This document shows, in pieces, positions 8,388 to 61,399 of a stretch of DNA of 64,000 nt. A program made the translations under genes and the position numbers. The stretch's first letter is position 1. The number at the start of each line of letters is the position of its first letter. The notes under the pieces were generated by a model. It ran no database searches. It had not been told where the DNA came from and was given only the letters and a program-made list of their open reading frames with translations. The DNA lies in NCBI GenBank assembly GCA_009869945.1, contig WIXG01000001.1, forward strand, positions 620,001 through 684,000, written 5' to 3'. The stretch comes from Mesaphorura yosii. Lineage: Eukaryota > Arthropoda > Collembola > Poduromorpha > Tullbergiidae.

Positions 8388-11300
8388 ATGGCAGCAACGA
8401 GAAAAAGTACAAGTTCCGAATTGCTCTACACGAAGGGAACCAGAGTTTGGATCCCGGATAAACAAGATGTGTGGCAATCAGCTGAAATCGTCAAAGATTA
8501 CAAGGAGTCAGACACCGAACTTTTGCTTCAACCGGAGGATGGAAAGGTGAGATCCAAATTCCAATTGTGCTTGCATACGCCAGTGATAAGGTCAAGGTAT
8601 ACTGAACTACTGATTATTTCCACAGGAGATTTCCATACCGATCAAGGCGAAAGAGAATCTGCCGCATCTTCGAAATCCAGACATTCTGATAGGGCAAAAT
8701 GATCTGACATCGTTGTCGTACTTGCACGAGCCAGCTGTGTTATATAATCTTAAGTATCGTTTCCTGAATCACAATATCATCTACACGTATTGTGGAATAG
8801 TTCTAGTTGCCATTAATCCTTATGAAGAGTTAGAAATTTACAATGCCGAAACAGTATGGGCCTATCGTGGCCAAGCCATGGGAGATTTGGACCCGCACAT
8901 ATTCGCCGTTGCGGAAGAGGCGTATACGAAAATGGAAAGGTTCGCATGCATATTGATAAGACTTGATAGGAGCCACGTGCTTAATTGATTACGCTGTTCT
9001 ACAGGGACGCCCGAGACCAGTCAATCATTGTCAGTGGCGAATCTGGTGCTGGCAAGACGGTATCAGCGAAATATGCTATGAGATACTTTGCAACTGTGGG
9101 AGGTTCTGAAAATGAAACCCAAATCGAGAAAAAGGTGCTGGCGTCAAGTCCGATTATGGAAGCTATCGGAAATGCAAAAACCACAAGGAACGATAATTCC
9201 AGTAGATTTGGCAAATATGTGGAGTTACATTTTGACAAGAAATACTCCATCATGGGTGCAAGCATGAGAACCTACCTACTAGGTACAATGTTTTAATCGG
9301 ATAGCTAACAATGCATGCAACTAACATGTGACATACTTCATTGCCAGAAAAATCCCGTGTCGTATTTCAATCTGACGACGAACGAAATTATCACATATTT
9401 TACCAAATCTGCTCTGCCGAGCATCAGGAGGTAGGCGGGTCGTGATCGTCCTGATGGCGTGCTATGAAAGGTTTGTTAATATGATGCCTTCCTTAGGTTT
9501 CCGACCTGTACTTGGCCTCGGCAGACTCATTCTTATACACTAACCAAGGTGGTGCTAGTAAGATAAAGGGCATCGACGACTCTAATACATTCCTGGAAAC
9601 ACTGGAGGCACTGACATTGCTCGGATTTGGTATTGATAAGCGAAGAAATTTCTTCAAGGTTCTTGCAGGGATTTTACATCTGGGAAACGTGCAAATTCAC
9701 GGCGGTGACGATGAGTCAAGTTCAATTCGGGTAAGTCGAACGATTCTTTTGCCTCCTGGCTAGTCAATTAGAGCAAACGTTTGTCATCGGTTTGAGGTAC
9801 GTTTGAAATTTCTTTGCAGAAAGATGATAAGCATTTAACCCACCTCTGTGAGCTGTTGTCTCTCGACTTTGACTCAATGCGTAAATGGTTGTGCCATCGC
9901 CGAATTGTTACTGGGAAAGAAGAATTCATCAAGGCAATGAGCAAATCGGAAGCTCAAAACTGCAGAGACGCATTATCAAAACTACTCTATGCACAAGTTT
10001 TCAATTGGGTAGTAGAAGGTATCAATGAATCACTCAGAACAAGTGGAAAGTGGAACAGATTTATTGGAGTCTTGGATATTTATGGATTTGAGACTTTCGA
10101 ATTCAATTCCTTTGAACAATTTTGTATAAACTATGCAAACGAAAAACTTCAGCAACAGTTTAATCAGGTTAGTTGAAAGCGTATTTGGCAACTTGAAATG
10201 CGTCATACGTCATATTAATCGGTTATGTATCTTACAGCATGTGTTCAAACTTGAGCAAGAAGAATATGTTCGAGAAGGAATCGAATGGACATTCATTGAG
10301 TTTTATGATAATCAGCCTTGCATAGACTTGATAGAAACAAAACTGGGAATCTTAGATTTGCTCGATGAAGAGTGTCGTATGCCTCAAGGGTCAGATGCAA
10401 CTTGGACACTCAAACTATATAACAAGTGTGGAAAATGGGCCGATCATTTTTCCAAACCTCGCATGAATGAAAACGGTTTTAACATTCACCACTTCGCAGA
10501 TAAGGTACCTTTCACATAGGATTGGGTTTAATGAGGAAATAAAATATTTCATCAAATGGCTGTACCCAGGTTGAATATCAAAGTATGGGATTCTTGGAGA
10601 AAAATCGTGATACAGTACTTCAAGAGCAAATCTTCACTGTTGCGGAATCCCAAAATCCATTCATATCAACCATCCTCAGCGATACGACGGACCAGCCGGC
10701 GGCGCCCAAGGGTCAGAAACCAAAAGTCTCAGTTTCGTCAGGGAGTGCAGCCAGCGCAACCGCGACAAGAAAGAAAACTGTCGGCAGTCAATTTCGAGAT
10801 TCCTTAACATTGCTCATGTCGAGTTTGAATGCAACAACCCCACATTATGTTCGATGCATTAAGCCCAATGATGTGAAGAGTGCGTTCGAGTTTGATTCGG
10901 CCAGAGCAGTTCAGCAGTTGAGGGCGTGTGGAGTTTTAGAAACAATAAGAATTTCGGCGGCTGGGTTTCCCTCAAGGTACGCGCCGCATTTCGCATTCTG
11001 GAGAAATTCGGTGCGTATAAAACGAATGTACCTTGAATGTTTTTCAGATGGACGTACTCAGATTTCTTTAGTCGATACCGCGTGCTGTGCCATTCTCGAG
11101 ATATTAAGAAGGACATGCGGTCAAATTGTGAACGCATTGTTACGAGGATAATCGAAGATCCCGAAAACTACCGTTTCGGAAAAACGAAAATATTCTTCCG
11201 CGCTGGACAAGTGGCATACATGGAAAAAATTCGCCTCGAGAAATTGCGAAGATGTGGCCTCATTATTCAGAAGAACATTTGCAGCTGGTACTACTTTAGT

Positions 11301-14300
11301 CGCTACCGAAAATTGAAAAAGGCAACACTCGCCATACAAACCTTTGGCCGTGGAATGCTGGCACGCAGGAGGGCGCTTCACATGCGACAAACAGCAGCCG
11401 CTACAAAAATCCAGAAGCATTTCAGGAGATTCGTCGCGCAGAGGAAATATCAGCAACTTCGCCGTGTCGTGGTTGCTTTGCAAGCTGTGGCGCGTGGTTA
11501 CTTGGCTCGGGAGCGAGCGAACTACTTAACAAGAGTTCAAAAGGTCGAGAAAATACAAAGATATTGGAGGGGATGTCTAGCCAGGAGAAAGCGTGACAGA
11601 AAGTTAAGGAGAATAATTTTGGTGCAATGTTGCATACGGCGTTGGTTGGCGAGACGAAGGTTCAGAACATTGAAGGCCGAAGCTAAGAGCATTGAGCATG
11701 TCCGACAACTGAACAAAGGCTTAGAAAATAAAATCATCGAACTTCAACAAAAGATTGGAGACTTGGTAAGACAGATACGAGATAATTTTCACTATCCCGA
11801 AAATGAGTTCTTACATTCTTAACCGCTTTTCTGTAGATGAAAGAAATTAACCAAAACAAACATCTCAAGTCCGAGCAAGCTCATCTAAAAACAGAAAAAG
11901 AAGCCAATAAAGCATTGGAAGCTCAGCTCAAGGCATTGCAACTGAAAATAGTAGAACTGGAAAAAGGGAAGCAGATCGCAGAGCTCAATCTAAAGAAAGA
12001 AATTGATGAGAAAGTTGACCTTGTCACAACGAAGACGCGTCTGGAGTCTGACTTTGTTCAACTGAATGGTGAAAAGGATAAACTGGCTGCAAATCTTGCA
12101 GAAACTTTGGAGCAAATTAGCAAGCTGGAAAAACGAAACGAGAAATTGGAAGTGATCAGACTAGAAAAGTCTGAATTAGAGAAAGAAATGGACGACCAAA
12201 CTGTACAGTATCAAACTATGGTCAAGAGGATAAATGATTTGGAGCAGCAGATTCATCAGCAGCAGGTAAATATAAGGTTCAATCTTGCGTATGTGTTTGA
12301 CCTTCAGAAATATTGACAAAATTCACAAGTTTCTGTTTCTATTTTCCAACCTTTTTAATGCTTCATTAACTAAAGAAATTGAGAAAGGTGAGCGTTGATG
12401 CATGTAGGACTTCCAGAGAACGTGTAGTTGAAAATACGAATTCGATTACAGTTATTAAACCGGTATCTTTTACGAACTAAATGTTTTTCTAGAAAAATCC
12501 AATTCCCCTTCCGCGCAAGACGGCGCCATCGTCCGCAACACCAAGTGTAAATTCCCTGGACAGCAGTGGAGTGGAATCACTTCAGGAAGATGTTGGACTC
12601 ATTTTAGCTCTTCAGCAAAGGCTGAAAGATGCAGAGGAAGAGAAGGAACGATTGGCTAGATTAGTAGAACTGAAGGAGAACGAGAGTCCAGCCAGCGAGA
12701 AACGTCGGGCGCACGATTCCCTGAGAGTAATAGCTTTTACTTGAATAATAATACGGAATGTGGCTAAGAAATTTCTCAATTGCCTATTTCTGATCACAGT
12801 TACAGGAATTGGAGATGGAAAATGCCAAACTCACAGCCAACTTGAAGACGCTTCGACAGTCAATCGAAACCAAGAACGGTCCGGCAGAATTGCAGAAACA
12901 ATTCGAGTCCTTGCAGGAAGAATTGAGTCGCAAGAAGGAAGAATCCATTCAGTTGAGATCTGTCCTTGCATCTAAACAACCTAATCAAGAGACGCTGAGT
13001 GGTGACGATGAGCATGAGATCGGACTAATTCTGAAGACTCAAAAGACTGTAAGCTTACTATTGAGCCAGCTTCAAGTAAAGTCTCACTCGCGGATAATGA
13101 TTATATGCATTATTTATTACTCTGGACCTAATCACAGGTTATTCAACAACTGGAGAAGGAACTACAAGATGAAAAATTAGCAAAGGCCAAAATAGAGGAA
13201 AATTATCGGTCTGAAGCTGCTAAACTGAAGGAGGAGTTGGCTACAGTGTTCACACACTTGAAATCTCCACAAAACAAAAATGAGCTCCTCCTTCAGCATC
13301 AAATTGGAAAATTGACATCGGAGAATCTTAACCTTCGAGCTAAGATCGAGGATCTTCAACACCAACTTCACAAATTACCAGCGTTAGAACAAATTGACAA
13401 TAGCCCAGCTTCCGGACCAATGATTCACAAAATGAAGAGAAATTACACCGGCATGCTTCAATACGCAGACGAAATCAAGCTCACGAAAATTCTAATTATC
13501 GATCTTAAGCCTAAGATAGCAATGAATGCACTTCCAGGGCTTCCAGCTTACATTATTTTCATGTGTATCAGATACACCGACAATTTGAATGACGACGACA
13601 AAGTCAGGAAGTTATTAACAGGCGTTATTCAAAATGTCAAGAAGGTGATAAACAAAAAGGGTACCAGTGACTTTGAAATTAGCGTGCTGTGGCTTGGAAA
13701 TGTCCTGCGCCTTCTCCATACTCTCAAACAATACTCTGGTGATCCAAGCTTTCAACGTGAAAATACATCAACCCAAAATGAGCAAGCACTCAAGAATTTC
13801 GACCTTTCTGAGTACAGACAAGTGTTGAGCGATGTTGCAGTGTGGATATACATCGTAAGTGATTGAAAATTGGCCTCAATTCTCGAAGCACTTGAAAATA
13901 TCTTTAATTTGTTTGGAATTTTGTAGATGGTGATTAAACAGCTCGAAGATAGGATTCAGCCATTAATTGTTCCGGCAATTTTAGAAACTGACACAGGATT
14001 AGCTAGTCAGGCAATCGGAATTGGTGCTGGACACCGTTCAAGAACGTCGGTTTCGGCGTTGCAGAAGCCTTTGGAAATGTTGACCGCAGAATTGGACGCG
14101 ATGCATGCACAATTGTGCTCATTCGGAGTGGATCCCGAAGTTATTTCACAAGTTCTGCGTCAACTTTACTACTATCTATGTGCTGGTGCCCTCAACAACT
14201 TGTTACTTCGACGAGATCTTTGCAACTGGGCGAAAGGTCTACAAATTCGCTACAATGTTTCAGTCCTTGAGGTATGGAAGATACGCGAAAAGCTGCCTTA

Positions 14301-36171: not shown

Positions 36172-36956
36172 TCATGCTCCTAAGTCGGAGTGGCTGAATT
36201 CAACTGCTCCCACAACATTTCCTGTAAACGTTAAAGATGGTCTGCACGCAGGCTCTTGAGTCCAGCAACTGGTCATGATTCCGTAACTGAAAATAAAATT
36301 TTCAGCATCAGCAAAATTACATTCTTTACCTTGTGAAGGCTTTGCGTTACATTTCTTCGGACGCAGCAACATGCCACTGTAATCTGATTCCTTCTGCCAA
36401 CTTCTTGGAGTACTCAACGAAGATATTTTCATAGGGAAGCTGTGCCAAACTGTAATCTCCCACAGAGTGACTCCAAAGGACCACACGTCAGAGCACGTGG
36501 AGTACTTTTCCTCAACGAACGCTTCGAGAGGCAGCCAGCGCCAAGGAACTTCTTTCTACACATCCTAAGGATTAAGGCTCTATACTTTCAATTGGCCTGT
36601 CGATGAATGTATACCTCTGTTGTGCTTTGATACAAACAGCAACCGCAAAATGTGTGGATGCTCTTTTTGCTCTTTCAGAAATGCCAACACCTTTAACTCA
36701 TATTTCAGAGATGCGTAGTCGCTGTCGTTCTTCACGGTTTTGAGTGCGATATTTTCTTCATTGTGCTGACCACCATATACGATCCCAAAATTCCCTTCGC
36801 CTAGAATATTGCTTCGATCTACGACATCTAAAGAAGTAGGAAACGCCATGTCCTCATATTATTTGTCGGCCCAATTTTGATAAGGGAATGATTACCAGGT
36901 ACAAGCCCGGATGTAATCGCATATTTGCTCACAAGGTCAACCAACTCCGTCCTGTT
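36172..36956 (-). pseudogene. Decayed receptor tyrosine kinase copy lacking the catalytic core
   Basis: Four blocks align exon by exon with the intact kinase gene to the right. 36956-36896 matches exon 6 (ELVDLVSKYAITSGLVPG), with the same phase. 36827-36615 matches exon 7, the N-lobe (LGEGNFGIVYGG, IALKTV, YELKVLAF, EHPHILRL). 36555-36351 matches exon 11 (KEVPWRWLPLEAF, SDVWSFGVTLWEI). 36286-36172 matches the last exon (IMTSCW, ACRPS). Between N- and C-lobe only the first five codons of exon 8 remain (GQLKV, then TAG at 36582-36580). The rest of exon 8 and all of exons 9 and 10, which carry the catalytic loop and DFG, are gone. In the exon 11 copy the frame shifts by one base around 36440, where LPYENI continues in another frame. 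I read this as a dead tandem duplicate. No lysozyme-like ectodomain remains could be recognised upstream. Confidence 0.85.
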
Positions 36957-37756
36957 CTTGTTAGATTATGTCAGGGTCTCTGATTACGATTTTTCCGATT
37001 TTACAGCAAAGGCCCGAAAAAAGGAGCTAGGCAGAATTCACTCATCTTTTGCCAGCAAAAATTTTCGTGAAACGAAGCCAAGCGCTAAGATTGAGAAACG
37101 GCCGCGGCAGACAGTATATTAAGCACTGAATATTCACCTGGAAAATGGTCTTGGTGTAAGCTCCTACATTTCTCCACGTGGAAGACCACATCGTTCTCGT
37201 CTGACGTCTGTTCTTATCTACATCTTTCAAGCTGCTACTCACCGGTCGGAGAAAGTTCGCACCCATCAAGGTAGAAGTTGTTATTTCTATTTCTGCACCC
37301 TCTATATAAACCAATCCAATGGTTTAGACACCAATCCCCGAAATCTGGTTGATATCTCAAGTTGGCCCAACAGTGGCACAAATCTCGCCTATCGCTTAAG
37401 TAGGCGAAGGTACCGCGACCACCTCACAAAATGGTTCTCGCTTTTGAAAAACTCAAAATTTTTCGGTAGAATAACAATAAGCCTATGCGATTTGTGGGGA
37501 AGAGGAGCTTCTCAAGGTTCGCTTCAAGTTCAAGTTAATTCAATTACAACAATATTGTCATGAGATGTATTGTTTAATTCGTGTCACAATAATAGTTCTG
37601 TTGCGAGCGCCCAAGCTAAGAGCTAAACTCTTCTTTGAAATTATACAATTGATTGCAGGTGCAGTGTTAGGGAAGAACGAGGTGTGTAACGTGCAGTTGA
37701 GTTGAGGTGTTGGAGAGAGTTGAGATGAGGCTCGATGCACCAACTCAGGCAGAGAC
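36957..37756. other. Spacer between kinase pseudogene and kinase gene
   Basis: About 800 bases. Minus-strand frames around 37042-37314 could be unrecognisable remnants of the pseudogene's extracellular and transmembrane exons, but I see no cysteine pattern or lysozyme motif in them. The right part should be the 3' UTR of the intact kinase gene. Confidence 0.4.
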
Positions 37757-40132
37757 CTAGACACGCTTAATCGACGTAGTTGAGTCGCTTTGCGAAGCAT
37801 TGGAGCTTAAAAGCTGGAGCAACGTCTCCCGCAACGTTGTGAACGCTGGTCTGGATTCAGCATCATGAGCCCAACAACTGAGCATAACTTCGTATCTGAT
37901 AAGACACACATTGCAAAAAATTTTGACGCTCGCTCATTTAAGCAAACACTTACATGCAAACCGGTGCTACTTGTGGCTGCTCCAGTCTGAATCCCTTGTG
38001 CAACTTTTTGATGTACTTGTCGTACGAAATATTCGCGTACGGCAACTGGGCGAAGTTGTAAATCTCCCACATCGTCACTCCAAAGGACCAGATATCAGAG
38101 TTTGTAGAGTATTTGTTGTTACACAGTGCCTCCCATGGCAGCCACCGCCAAGGAACTTCTTTCTGCGTATAAAAATGAACTGAGTAAAAATTAAATTACG
38201 AGAGTTTTAGCTCATGCTTGACTTGACCATGTATTACATCATGTGTACGTAAATAAATTGGATTCGTGTAGAGCTTCTTGGAAAGACCAAAATCAGTCAG
38301 CTTGATGTTTGCCCTGTCCTTGAGCAAAATGTTTCGCGTCGCCAAATCTCCGTGTATGACCTTCGAAGACCCAACCTGTTAAAGCACTAGCACGCTTATA
38401 ATCAAAAATTGCCGATACTCACATTCTTGCTTCCCAAGTACTCCATTGCCTCCGCAATTTGGAATGACCAAGTGAGCATGAGATGCAACGACACAAGCTC
38501 ATTTTGCATAAATTGCATGGACGTTTGCTTGTAGCTCCTGCGTTGTCAGAGTTGTGCACACAAAATTCAGTTAATTAACCGCTAAACGTCTTACTGATCT
38601 TGTGTATCGCAATTGTCAGTTAACGCGTTAATCAAGCACGAGTCCCTGTTCGACTCCAAGTGGTCGTGAAGATTTCCAAGCTGGCACTCTTCAACGACCA
38701 AGTACAGTTTGCCTGACACACAGAGAAGACTCAATATCATTATCAAGCGACGGCATACCACATTAAGAGCGGCAAATCTCACCGTTTTCAAGCTCGTCTA
38801 TGTACGTCCCAAACAGCCGGATGATGTGTGGATGCTCCTCGATGAACGCCAACACTTTCAGCTCGTACATTAATGTGAGGCTATCTGTTTCGTCCTTCAC
38901 AGTCTTAAACGCAACATTTTCCTTCTTGAATTGGCCTCCGTACACGATGCCAAAGTTTCCTTGTCCCAAAATCCGTCCCTTCTCTGAAATCGATTACGAT
39001 AAACCAATTTCTCTTTCGCAAAATTCTAACCTACTCTATCAGGGCATAAGTCCTACCTAGGACAGCCTCATCCGCCTTAATCCGATGTTTCCGTACACAG
39101 TCTTTCAACTCATCACGACCCTGACCATATTCAATGGATACTTTAACAATCATCGGGACAACATACCGTAAACAATTGCTCACCTTTCCCCAAAATTGTC
39201 TGCCGTATTTCCACCCAAGGAAGGCGAGCCCCAGCAGCAAAATTAAACTTGAGAGTGAAAGGGCAACTGGGAGCACGAATGACTTCTCGTCATTATCGGG
39301 GCCACGACCAGGATCTGGAATGTATAATTGTGAGTATCAACACATATCACTTCCTTCTTGTGAAGTTGGCAATGCATTGATCAAGCAGTATTCAGAAGGC
39401 CAAAACTTTTAACTTCCAAGCGAGCAGCGAGAAACGGGCAAGTTATGTGATCTTACTTGGAAGTTTCGGAGAGAGACCACAGTCTTTAATGTATGTGCTT
39501 GTATTGACGCCTCTGCACTTGTCGAATGTGTTACCCCAGTGCCCGAAATTCGGCTTCTTTTCGGCAATAACTCGTGCGCATTTGAGATTGTCGGAGATGT
39601 CGTCTCCTACCAGCTCTAAAATTGTTATTGTTGTAAAGGAAGTGCTGCATTCATAATGTCATGAAGGAATAACTTCGTTTTACATACTTGAGCATGCAAT
39701 GTCACAATCATTTGTGTCGGGTTCAGGAAAGTCTAGGTCAGAACACCAAAACTTGTTGCTAATCTGTGAAGCAGAGCAAACAAACATTACTTCAAGAGTT
39801 CATATCATGCGAGCATCGTGTTGAATTGAGATTACCAAATACAACCCGTAGAGCGTCGAGTTTGTTGTGTTGTGGAATCTCTGGAATGAAGAATTGAGAC
39901 GGCTACCTTCTTCGGCAAGGCAAACCCCTAAATTGTTGAAAGCGGCAGTGGTCACTGAGCGTCGGACATGTTTAAACAAAATAAACTTACAATCTCCAAG
40001 CTCCGAGTAGCTGAACTTGTTGTTGAGCAGCTCATAAGCAAGCTCGCATCTGGAAAACACTTTCGAATGGCTGCCCACAGCGAACAATGCACAAATTGCA
40101 CAAAACTTTAAGACTCCCTGCAGAACGGCCAT
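37757..40132 (-). CDS. Receptor tyrosine kinase with a C-type lysozyme-like ectodomain (12 exons, 527 aa)
   Basis: Exons from the start: 40132-39991, 39927-39836, 39763-39688, 39615-39457, 39314-39184, 39120-39057, 38983-38783, 38712-38595, 38537-38423, 38375-38238, 38162-37954, 37895-37757; 1584 nt, every junction GT-AG in phase. Residues 1-23 are a signal peptide. Residues 24-156 are a C-type lysozyme fold (KVFSRCELAYELL, LGDWVCLAEE, YGLYLISNKFWC, DDISDNLKCARVI) with all eight cysteines: 29, 50, 85, 98, 102, 116, 137, 149. The catalytic Glu position holds Gly55 (Glu54 beside it) and the catalytic Asp position Leu73. There are four N-glycosylation sequons. The transmembrane helix is at about 169-191. 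In the kinase: glycine loop GQGNFG, Lys248, Glu262, HGDLATRN (Asp376, Asn381), DFG from Asp394, then VPWRWLPWEAL and SDIWSFGV. The catalytic residues are intact, so kinase activity is likely. Ligand and pathway are unknown. Confidence 0.9.
39121..39183 (-). other. 63-nt frame-preserving intron in the lysozyme-kinase juxtamembrane region
   Basis: Begins GTGAGC and ends GTCAG on the minus strand. The pseudogene copy has an acceptor at the homologous place, before NRTELVDL, which supports splicing. The intron is 21 codons long with no stop, so retention would only lengthen the region between membrane and kinase. Confidence 0.7.
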
Positions 40133-57000: not shown

Positions 57001-59073
57001 TTCAGAAAACTGCAACTGCCATTGTTAGCTAAACTTTACGGCTACGGCTTGGGTACGTATAAAAGAACTGATTACTCAGAATGAGTCGTCAAAGACCCAA
57101 GCCACGTTTAGGCTTTTCAGCCTTTTCTCTTGTTCTTGTTGAATGTCAAGTACCACGGCTACGCAATGGCTTACTAAGAAAATACCCGTTAGTTCCGTAG
57201 CGCAGTCCACGTCCACGCGTTACGTCTCCGTCTCAGCGTCTCAGGATTATGTTGTATGAAGTATGAGACGATGATACGGTTGATGATAGCACGATCGCAT
57301 TAAAATGGCAAGGTGTTAACGTAACTCGTAGTCTCCTGCTTCTTTGGTCACAGTATGCAAAACGTATTCGTGCTTTCCTTTCATCACACGCTGCATTCTT
57401 ATACAATTTTTCATCAAGATCAAGACCAAGTCAAGGCAAAAAACTCAAGCTCGAGCATTTTCCACGCTGGCTTGCTTTTGCATCGCATTGCCTTGCGTCA
57501 CAACAATGCACGTTAATGTTTACAAATTTCCTATTATGGCATAAATACAAATGCCTAATATTATATCACATAAATATGGTATCAGATCGCACCACGAGAA
57601 ATTAAATCGAAGTCGTCTCATAAATGCGAAATGCCTAACGCACGCACTCATTCAGTGCAAAAGCTTCATTTCAAGTCGTATCGTAATAATTCTTTCCGTT
57701 AGTTATTAAGTAAGAATTGCAGGATGTATTAATTTTAGTCCACATTCTCACACGTATGAGTTTGAGACCCTACGTCGTAAGCCTGACCGTACATATACAC
57801 GAGCTCACCACAACAAAAGTACAGAATATTATAAAGACGGTCATTTAGCTCACACTATTGCGAATGCGAACGCGAACGCAAATGGTGACTTCCTAAGAAA
57901 AAGAGTGTGAATAAGAACCATGAACATGAACGTGAATTCAAACACGAGAGGCGAACGTGGACGAAGAGACTCTCGGAGGCTTTCTGATGAATACGTGCAA
58001 TTAAGAATGAGCAAGCGGTAGCAGAAGGTGTCTTCATTCTTCATCTTCCGTTTGATCCTATTTATTCAGAATTGGGATCGCAGTCATTGAAGTAATAATT
58101 ACAGGCTTTGCTGCGATGAATTAAACAAATATTAGCCTCCATTCTCATTCTACTTTTGCATCCATCCAACGCGAGATTAAAATGAAGCTTGTCTCCTTTT
58201 TTTCATATTAAAGGAAATGCGAGCTAGATGCAGAGCACCTTCGTATGGCTTTGGCTGCTGGCTGTGCACAATGCTGAATTTGATAAGCAAAAAGATTGCA
58301 CTACGTTGCCTATTAAGTTGGCACCGGCATTGGCATTGCCCACGTCGCGCCGTGACTGACATACATTTCATTCACGACGTCTTCAAGCGGTTTGGTGCAC
58401 GAAAATAGTCACAGAATCTAATGCGATGTGTTGAAAAGCCGGCGTGATTATAATAAATTACGGGATCAATTCTTAATCATGAAAGATGCAATGAACTATG
58501 AGAGTCACGACATAATTTTCGTTAGAGATTGCATACGTTCAAAAGACTGAAGATTCAAGTTAAAACGGTCAAAGTGTGGACTCTTTGTTATTTCTTTGCG
58601 GCCGGAATTGTAAATCGTCCCTCCACCAAGTGCTTGATTTCTTGTGACTGATAGCATTCCCCCGCACTCTGCAGTTTCCAGCATGTTGAAAGCTTTGCGA
58701 TTAGTATGTGATTAGTATTAGTATGAAAAGTCAGTTCTTATCTAATCGGCTGAGTTAATTTTTCAATATTTGTATCTGGAGAGGTCTGAACATCACAAGA
58801 GTCGGCTCTTGAGAATGTTCACAATTGACTCGATTTATCGTTCCGATCTCTCGCTAGGCTCATGGGCTCTTTATGACACTGAGCTTCGTTAGGCACAGAA
58901 TCATAAATTGACAAAGAATATATTCCTACGAAAGGTTTAGGTACTTCCATGAACGGCCGCATTCTTTCAGATAGATTGAGTCATTGTTCAGCGTCGTTAC
59001 TGCCACACTTCACCTGACATCAACTGGAGAAATTTGTTTTCGATTCCGAGTCTCCTGCAGGTCGTCTTACAAG
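54012..59073. other. Intergenic region between ZP gene and ABCG gene
   Basis: The two genes point away from each other, so promoters or 5' UTRs of both are expected here. Frames at 54089-54824 on the minus strand are short and low in complexity (Ser-, Glu-, Arg-rich) and may be 5' UTR of the ZP gene. No other gene recognised. Confidence 0.45.
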
Positions 59074-61399
59074 ATGCCTTTGGTTTGGGAAGATTTGTGC
59101 TTTCAGGCCGATGAACCGGTTTTGAAGAAACTCGCGACTGTGTGCTGCTGTTGCTGCGTCAAGCAGAAGAAAGGTGAAACTATTCTGAAAAATCTGAGCG
59201 GAAAAGTGGATTTTGGCACCATTGTGGCATTGATGGGACCGTCAGGGGCGGGGAAGTCCACCATTTTAAAGTGCCTCACCCAAGGAAAAATCGACAGAGG
59301 GTACTCCGGCGGACAGATTCTCGTTCACAAGAATGAGGCAGCTGTCTCAAGCTACATTTGCCAGAATGATGTGGACCATTTGCTGTTTTCTTTAACTGTG
59401 GAGCAGTCAATGATGTATGCGTCTCAATTGAAGAATCCTAGGAAAACTAGTCCGGAATTTCATGAGACAACAATAAACGAGCAGCTAACTCAGCTCGGCT
59501 TGTCACGAGTACGAAAGAACTACGTGTCAAAGCTATCTGGAGGAGAACGTAAGCGCTTGGCTGTGGGTTTGGAGCTCACTCAGGATCCCAAGCCAAATTA
59601 TCTGTTCTTGGATGAACCAACGAGTGGCCTGGACAGTCAAGCCGTCTTTGAGGTACGAACGTCTAAATTCTAGCAAGATTGTCAAAAAATATTTAATCGC
59701 GTCTCGTAACTCAATTAACGATGTAACACTTCCACAGTTGCTGGAGATGCTTCAAGGTCTAGTCCGGGACAAGCCAATGGCCGTGATCACAGTGATTCAC
59801 CAGCCCAGCTATTTTTTATTGCTAAAGTTCCAGCAAGTTTTCTTTTTGTCCAAAGCTGGCTTGATTTATGGAGGGTCACCACATCAACCGCTTCAGAAGT
59901 ACATTGCTGAACATGGCTACTATAACGCAACCGGCTTGCGAAGTCAAAACGAGAATCCGGCGGATATTATGATAAGGATTGCAGCATCATGTCTTCAGCT
60001 TGATCGGGGTGACGACGAGGACGTGGAGGCACAGCCACTTGAACCCAGTCCACTCCAAACCATCTGCATAACAATGATTAAAACGTACAGGGAGTCTTAC
60101 GCCTTGGTCCGACTCGACCCGTCACAGTTGCGTCCGGTACACGAAGATGGTCTGTGCAAGAATGGCTCGAAATTTAGCATGCGGAGTTTCTGCGTGCTCC
60201 TGCGACGAACTGCAAGGACAACGATTTGCGGCCAAGCAAGCTTTCTCGTGATTCGCTTCGCACTGCACGGAGTTGTAGCGATTACTCTGGCGCTGCTGTA
60301 CAGCCGAGACATTTGGTACGGAAGATAGTTGCTACACGCTCGATCCACGGTTTGATACTCACAATTGTTCCTGTGTTCGACGTGAGGAAGAATTGCGGGA
60401 TGAGGCTGTCTCGGCTCAAAACGTCAAGTTCCAGTTCTTCAGTCTGCTCTTCTTAATGTTTGCCGCACTGATGCCCACTGTGCTCTCGTACCCTGCCGAA
60501 ATCAAGGTACGCACCACACACGCCTAAACAAGGCCCTGGCCAGGATATTATCTTAGTTTATTGGTTTTTAGATTTTCTTGAATGAACATCAAAATGGATG
60601 GTACACAACGGCAACGTACTACATTGCCAAAACGATCACCGAAATACCAGCGCAGCTCATGTTTCCCATCTTTTACATCTGGTTCCTGTACTGGTACACT
60701 CAACAGGTGGGAATGGAACATTGGTATAATGGAATTATTGGCCTCATGTCCTGGAGATACTTCATATTCATGCTTATTACAATTTTGGCTTGCTTCATCG
60801 CACAAGGACTTGGTTTCCTGATTGGTATCATTTGCGTGTACTCTCCAAACATCTCAATCATCCTCTCTTCCTCTGTCCTTCTCTTCCTCTTTCTTTTTTC
60901 TGGATTCTTCGTCAAGACGGTGAGCATGGGACCACACGTCCAATGGATAACGTACTTGTCCTTCATAAAGTTTGCTTTTGAGGCACTTCTTATTTTGATT
61001 TACGGCTACGAGCGTTGTGGTCTCATCCAAGAGCCTGGAAGCATCGTGCCCACGGTTCCCACAAAGTCCTCTATTCTGTACACGTTCGACCTAAAGGACG
61101 ACGACTTGCTGCGAAATGTCTATTGGCTCCTGGTACACTTCTTAGTCATACGAACACTCGCCTTCATTGCACTCAAGAATCGAGGAGATCCAAAATTTTT
61201 GAAGTTTTTGAAGACGCGAATAGTACTGGATGGAGTCAATTGGTTGTTGGACGCCTGTTCCAACAGTTACAAAGTTTGTGGCAAATTTTGGAAATGCGTG
61301 GAAATTGTGATCAGAATCTGGTTTGCATTGTTTGTCCTTGAAATAGGTATAGGAGTTATAATTGCACTAATTCAAATATTCAATGGAGATGTTAAATAA
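59074..61399 (+). CDS. ABCG-family (white/ABCG1-like) half-transporter, with an apparent frame break
   Basis: Exons 59074-59652, 59738-60506 (frame broken inside) and 60572-61399. Order is nucleotide-binding domain then membrane domain, as in subfamily G. Visible: Walker A GPSGAGKS, Q-loop ICQNDV, signature LSGGERKR, Walker B YLFLDEPTSGLDS and H-loop VIHQPS. A Cys run (CCCCC) precedes the core. Membrane segments include FALHGVVAITLALL, FFSLLFLMFAALMPTVL and several in exon 3 (LLFLFLFSGFF, FVLEIGIGVIIAL). In exon 2 the frame reaches TAG at 60326-60328 just after the first membrane helix. The following sequence (DSCYTLDPRFDTHN, then the second helix) is coding in the +1 frame, and I found no GT-AG intron of normal size to bridge this. 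Either an assembly or read error, an odd splice, or a recent inactivating mutation. Start: the ATG at 59074 follows a possible acceptor (CTGCAG); an upstream in-frame ATG exists at 58984. Confidence 0.87.
60320..60330 (+). other. Frame break in the ABCG gene
   Basis: Sequence upstream reads LLYSRDIWYGR then TAG. Downstream family-conserved sequence (FFSLLFLMFAALMPTVL) is in the next frame, open back to this point. A loss of two bases or gain of one near here would explain it. Confidence 0.7.

Follow-up and report, generated by a model that had tools for sequence, protein, structure and literature searches.

A candidate receptor tyrosine kinase with a lysozyme-fold ectodomain in the springtail Mesaphorura yosii

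Can one gene join a C-type lysozyme fold to a tyrosine kinase across the cell membrane, and what would a lysozyme do at the head of a receptor? These questions are raised by a locus on the minus strand (40132-37757) of the window, the whole stretch of 64,000 nucleotides analysed here. To our knowledge, a lysozyme fold and a tyrosine kinase have not been described together in any animal receptor. A full-text literature search for lysozyme or novel heads on receptor tyrosine kinases gave none among the matches listed, and such proteins may sit unremarked in supplements or in animal protein databases. Ectodomain shuffling is described in passages of a holozoan tyrosine kinome survey, the main text of which leaves lysozyme, kelch, springtail and Folsomia unmentioned (PMC8662651). 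Neither kinase nor lysozyme is mentioned in the main text of the Folsomia genome paper (PMC5490193), and an arthropod gene-fusion paper does not mention kinase and has lysozyme only within a reference (PMC13389597).

Gene model and paralogs

The gene consists of 12 exons with GT-AG borders throughout, which join into 1584 nt encoding 527 residues. Phases agree at every join and the single stop lies at the end, as the first-pass annotation had claimed; the two alternative frames of the spliced sequence contain 17 and 30 stops. Exon 5 was likewise found to span the end of the ectodomain, the whole helix and the first cytosolic residues, as that annotation had stated. The features of the locus are as follows.

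40064-40132, minus: signal peptide, residues 1-23, within exon 1 (hydropathy peak at residues 1-19; domain match from residue 24)
39991-40132, minus: exon 1, signal peptide and start of the lysozyme domain (spliced model)
39836-39927, minus: exon 2, lysozyme, with Gly55 at the E35 site and Leu73 at the D52 site (model and alignment)
39688-39763, minus: exon 3, lysozyme (spliced model)
39457-39615, minus: exon 4, C-terminal part of the lysozyme, with a coding ATTAAA at 39490 (model, Pfam, motif scan)
39315-39456, minus: intron 4, 142 bp, separating lysozyme from helix (sequence)
39184-39314, minus: exon 5, ectodomain end, transmembrane helix, first cytosolic residues (model and hydropathy)
39220-39276, minus: transmembrane helix, residues 170-188 (hydropathy)
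39057-39120, minus: exon 6, juxtamembrane (spliced model)
38783-38983, minus: exon 7, kinase N-lobe with GQGNFG and VAFK (model and Pfam)
38595-38712, minus: exon 8, kinase (spliced model)
38423-38537, minus: exon 9, kinase (spliced model)
38238-38375, minus: exon 10, catalytic loop HGDLATRN and DFG, alternative start at 38360 (model, paralog models)
37954-38162, minus: exon 11, kinase C-lobe (spliced model)
37757-37895, minus: exon 12, kinase end, tail and stop (spliced model)
37573-37578, minus: possible polyadenylation signal ATTAAA downstream of the stop (motif only, by motif scan)
36229-37351, minus: decayed tandem copy of the lysozyme kinase (tblastn with the intact protein)

Exon 10 may begin at 38360 rather than 38375, which would remove five residues (VGSSK) that the three closest paralogs lack in their models.

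In the predicted protein, Pfam places Lys at residues 24-149 (71.0 bits, 1.3e-19; cut-off 27) and PK_Tyr_Ser-Thr at residues 222-507 (232.7 bits, 5.7e-69), and the sole further match over its cut-off is the related Pkinase model. Pfam reported no Ig domain, and with regard to a Venus flytrap ectodomain it gave Lys alone outside. Hydropathy has two peaks, the signal peptide (residues 1-19) and a single helix (residues 170-188), which confirms an earlier claim, and alignment recovered all eight family cysteines that had been reported. With Lys above its cut-off and these cysteines in place, the head has the fold of a C-type lysozyme, as first read; what that reading had not noted is that Glu35 and Asp52 of the enzyme are replaced by Gly and Leu. 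The signal peptide, one helix, predicted cytosolic kinase and conserved catalytic Asp give the layout of a receptor tyrosine kinase. The kinase motifs GQGNFG, VAFK, HGDLATRN and DFG are present and the catalytic residues are intact as described, with Lys, Asp and DFG in place, though the Arg of HRD is Gly. Elsewhere in the window lie a myosin head with IQ motifs (10543-11819, plus), an ABC transporter with ABC_tran and ABC2_membrane (58975-61396, plus) and a cuticlin N-terminal match (54323-53745, minus; 28.0 bits against a cut-off of 27) with a signal-peptide-like stretch seen by eye.

We searched the genome (93 Mb in 1127 contigs; gene counts are lower bounds) for paralogs, taking as queries the window protein, lysozyme domains and the Lys and tyrosine kinase families, and then applied a spliced-alignment script. 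Spliced alignment recovered seven further lysozyme-kinase genes, giving at least eight with the window gene. Three of them (C604, C966 and C313) encode lysozyme, helix and kinase as in the window gene; C535 keeps this order with a kinase from another group, and C346, C328 and C297 encode lysozyme, one Ig region, helix and kinase. The eight loci lie on eight contigs with identical domain order. In four of the seven paralogs (C328, C297, C535 and C346) one uninterrupted exon holds the lysozyme domain, in full or in part, together with the helix and a partial or complete kinase. The open exons of C328 and C297, of 427 and 441 codons, run from the signal peptide through the whole Lys domain (82 and 81 bits, respectively), Ig and helix to the kinase start. 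The C535 exon starts inside the lysozyme domain and reaches the kinase end, with half of Lys at 37.9 bits, and the C346 exon also extends from within the lysozyme domain to the kinase end, matching Lys profile positions 76-123 only at 21.4 bits, below the cut-off of 27. For C313, Pfam did not report Lys on the exon with the kinase; another exon scored 26.8 bits, or 27.6 with its neighbours, and the rest of its lysozyme was assigned by alignment. The paralog models are partial: no signal peptide is modelled for C966 and C535, the start codon is unfixed in C604, C313 and C346, and the last exons are uncertain in C328, close to a contig end, and in C297.

A lysozyme-Ig open frame close to C297 (C549, L055; 4922-4209, minus) has no kinase among the matches listed there and is either a truncated copy or one that lost its kinase; its model is not credible beyond the Ig region and was not used. 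In the decayed copy next to the window gene, a lysozyme C-terminal piece (37351-37247; weak, E 0.002) precedes kinase pieces at 36825-36637, 36555-36229 and 36454-36377, the last in a different frame, in the same order as in the window gene. A spliced model was attempted for this copy and no sound one was obtained.

Because four paralogs carry the join in one exon, the fusion does not hang on splice prediction, and because seven further genes have the same make-up it is beyond chance. As read from the sequence, the lysozyme-kinase fusion at 40132-37757 holds. The fusion and receptor layout of the first-pass annotation are thus supported, also by the paralogs with lysozyme, helix and kinase in one exon; what it missed are the probably dead head and the family of at least eight genes.

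The lysozyme head

The catalytic residues were compared in an alignment of hen lysozyme, as reference, with 13 domains from this genome (14 rows). E35 is missing in all nine kinase- or Ig-linked lysozymes and kept in all four free ones (Fisher 0.0014), and D52 is missing in the same nine and kept in three of the four (Fisher 0.014), values that ignore shared descent and overstate the difference if the linked lysozymes are one clade, since loss of catalysis may then be one event. The free lysozyme without D52 is C118, whose gene model is weak. The change at D52 is mild in C313, where the residue is Glu; in C966 an insertion makes the E35 column uncertain, with no Glu aligned there. The eight cysteines are kept in all 14 rows. 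Because E35 and D52 are gone while the cysteines are intact, the lysozyme head is probably a binding module rather than an enzyme, and that of the window gene is very probably not an enzyme.

The sugar cleft gives a mixed picture. Trp108 is kept in nine of nine linked lysozymes and Trp63 in eight of nine, C313 having His at 63, and on this account glycan sensing by the head is possible, with a glycan as first guess. Conservation of these tryptophans may serve the fold alone, and in the window gene hen Gln57, Asn59, Asp101 and Ala107 are replaced by Leu, Ser, Lys and His, which weakens the guess. The nearest precedents are the sperm proteins SPACA3/SLLP1 and LYZL4, which share the C-type lysozyme fold with replaced catalytic residues and conserved cleft tryptophans and differ in being vertebrate sperm proteins without a kinase; in sperm lysozyme-like proteins, several of which lack the same catalytic residues, the binding sites that vary least are Trp63 and Trp108, and the proteins are modelled to hold (NAG)3, the cleft being still usable (PMC5104373). 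SPACA3 was among the solved-structure matches of the C328 head.

Where did the heads come from? The C-type lysozymes that occur free in this genome (C1114, C167, C1 and C118) belong to the same family, and no kinase was found among the matches listed near them. Introns common to free and fused genes lie at hen positions 28 (phase 1), 58 (phase 0) and 82 (phase 1); they are partly or wholly lost in some copies, with none in the domain of C328 and C297. Because positions and phases are shared, the heads most likely derive from the animal's own intron-bearing lysozyme genes. By Nei-Gojobori counts, dS is saturated in six of seven lysozyme pairs and six of six kinase pairs, and dN is 0.20-0.56 for lysozyme (one free pair included) and 0.14-0.47 for kinase. 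Saturated dS with low dN points to old genes and long constraint on both halves; with dS saturated, no dN/dS ratio is claimed.

The kinases and their other heads

The best solved relatives of the kinase, by phmmer against solved chains, are VEGFR1, VEGFR2 and PDGFRA, and the matches listed include KIT and CSF1R as well; the top row, above these, is a tandem EGFR entry scored over its two copies together. We assign the VEGFR/PDGFR class from these matches to solved chains and not from a tree with named kinases. The likeness to the VEGFR/PDGFR/KIT/CSF1R class lies in the kinase sequence, the single helix and, in three of the eight genes, one Ig domain, whereas the lysozyme ectodomain and an HGD rather than HRD loop set these proteins apart; ectodomains of the VEGFR/PDGFR class consist of several Ig domains. 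Each of the eight lysozyme kinases has the ATP-binding Lys, the catalytic Asp and DFG, and each has Gly for the Arg of HRD, giving a non-RD loop. Such loops usually go with a different control of the activation loop. Among 32 kinases kept from the genome, the catalytic loop is HGD in 25, HAD in two and HRD in three, with two unmatched by the motif. Genome-wide we counted at least 159 tyrosine kinase family matches (129 of 642 candidates scored), of which many occupy long open frames and some contain in-frame stops; by this count, a lower bound, the kinase family is greatly expanded in this genome. The genome also has 66 Chitin_bind_4 matches, which mark it as that of an arthropod, and, at C420:24688-32376 (plus), an open frame of 3156 residues with three condensation-type matches (non-ribosomal peptide synthetase), which presumably resembles the beta-lactam peptide synthetase of springtails. 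A Folsomia isopenicillin N synthase is mentioned in a passage of the genome paper of that animal (PMC5490193).

The kinase tree comprised 32 of the 33 rows, the trimming motif having removed the Cys-rich C727. In it the lysozyme kinases occupy three separate positions: the group of the window gene, C328 with C297, and C535 with C346, the last two inside a kelch-kinase clade (98/90). Four AU tests were run on 31 rows, the ACK row being left out, and their p-values are lenient guides, the groups having been named after the tree was viewed. All eight lysozyme kinases as one kinase clade were rejected (p 0.0002), and with this one fusion followed by simple descent; C535 and C346 as kinase sisters were not (p 0.154). 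The four kelch kinases alone were rejected as a clade (p 0.00008), mostly since C1099 groups with one of them, and the kelch kinases with C1099, which was placed by its kinase with its head not seen, were weakly rejected (p 0.032). In the lysozyme tree a weakly supported branch (71/69) has all nine linked lysozymes on one side, and their heads may have one origin. Because the lysozyme kinases are not one kinase clade, heads were probably exchanged between kinases or gained more than once, and exchange is favoured over repeated gain.

Other heads on sister kinases were read for the loci fetched from the genome. Kelch propellers stand on C539, C578, C654 and C732; further heads are Ig regions (C328, second locus) or regions without a Pfam name. 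Receptor-like tyrosine kinases with such propellers as ectodomains lie in long single open frames (L016, L021, L029 and L030). In one gene, C789 (L014; 1-2463, plus), a receptor-like kinase has a subtilase ectodomain that has lost the catalytic His and Ser of subtilisins (GHGT to GIGT, GTS to GTN), and this head also looks dead.

Proposed function and rival readings

The reading we favour, and hold to be fairly probable, is a single-pass receptor tyrosine kinase in which a dead-lysozyme head binds a ligand, most likely an aminosugar glycan, and a VEGFR/PDGFR-like non-RD kinase signals. Ligand binding by the head would pair or cluster receptors, the clustered kinases would phosphorylate each other, and the phosphorylated kinases would pass on a growth- or defence-type signal. 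The likeliest ligand would be a beta-1,4-linked aminosugar glycan: peptidoglycan, chitin, fragments of either, or host glycoprotein sugars.

The strongest rival keeps the same receptor and gives it a protein ligand: a growth factor that is secreted, a protein of microbial origin or, as between sperm and egg, a partner carried by another cell. Kinases of the VEGFR/PDGFR class normally bind protein growth factors through Ig domains, and one Ig domain is present in three of the eight lysozyme kinases; the changes at catalytic and several sugar-contact residues also fit a protein. Against it stand the conserved cleft tryptophans and the lack of a candidate ligand, and we regard it as a serious minority reading. 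Far less probable is that the window locus yields mostly a secreted dead lysozyme, with intron 4 retained or the transcript ending near exon 4, and the receptor as a minor form. Read-through into intron 4, the longest of the eleven introns, would add four residues (SKIT) before a stop, and exon 4 contains an ATTAAA; however, neither AATAAA nor ATTAAA was found within intron 4 itself, and such a form is impossible for the paralogs in which a single exon encodes lysozyme, helix and kinase sequence. That two adjacent genes or an assembly chimera were wrongly joined has in its favour only that the window join is read from genomic DNA; two neighbouring genes or a splice artefact are rejected by the single-exon joins of the paralogs, for which the eight loci on eight contigs in one order also contradict a wrong join, as does the like order of the decayed neighbour, and we consider this hardly credible. 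The intact cysteine pattern would also suit a lysozyme that is active, anchored in the membrane and equipped with a signalling tail; this reading is rejected by the loss of both E35 and D52 in nine of nine linked domains and is just as improbable.

A glycan- or protein-binding receptor of the kind favoured here has partial parallels. Plant LysM and other immune receptor kinases place a glycan-type head on a kinase with a non-RD loop; their head fold is unrelated and they are Ser/Thr kinases, and the likeness is analogy only. Venus kinase receptors are invertebrate receptor tyrosine kinases with an unusual outer binding module (PMC4026697), and differ in having a Venus flytrap head and an insulin-receptor-like kinase. 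More speculatively, and with rather low confidence, the interchangeable heads (dead lysozyme, dead subtilase and kelch) on mostly non-RD VEGFR-like kinases could make up an extensive set of receptors particular to this lineage. Such a set would be the animal equivalent of plant immune receptor kinases, with microbes or food sensed by what were once antimicrobial or digestive enzymes.

If the head binds glycans, the receptor would link microbial or cuticular sugar directly to signalling of the growth-factor type. It would also be a clear example of an enzyme that became a sensor, for which free relatives with catalytic residues in the same genome serve as controls, and the sister kinases with their differing heads offer a natural series on how new receptors arise.
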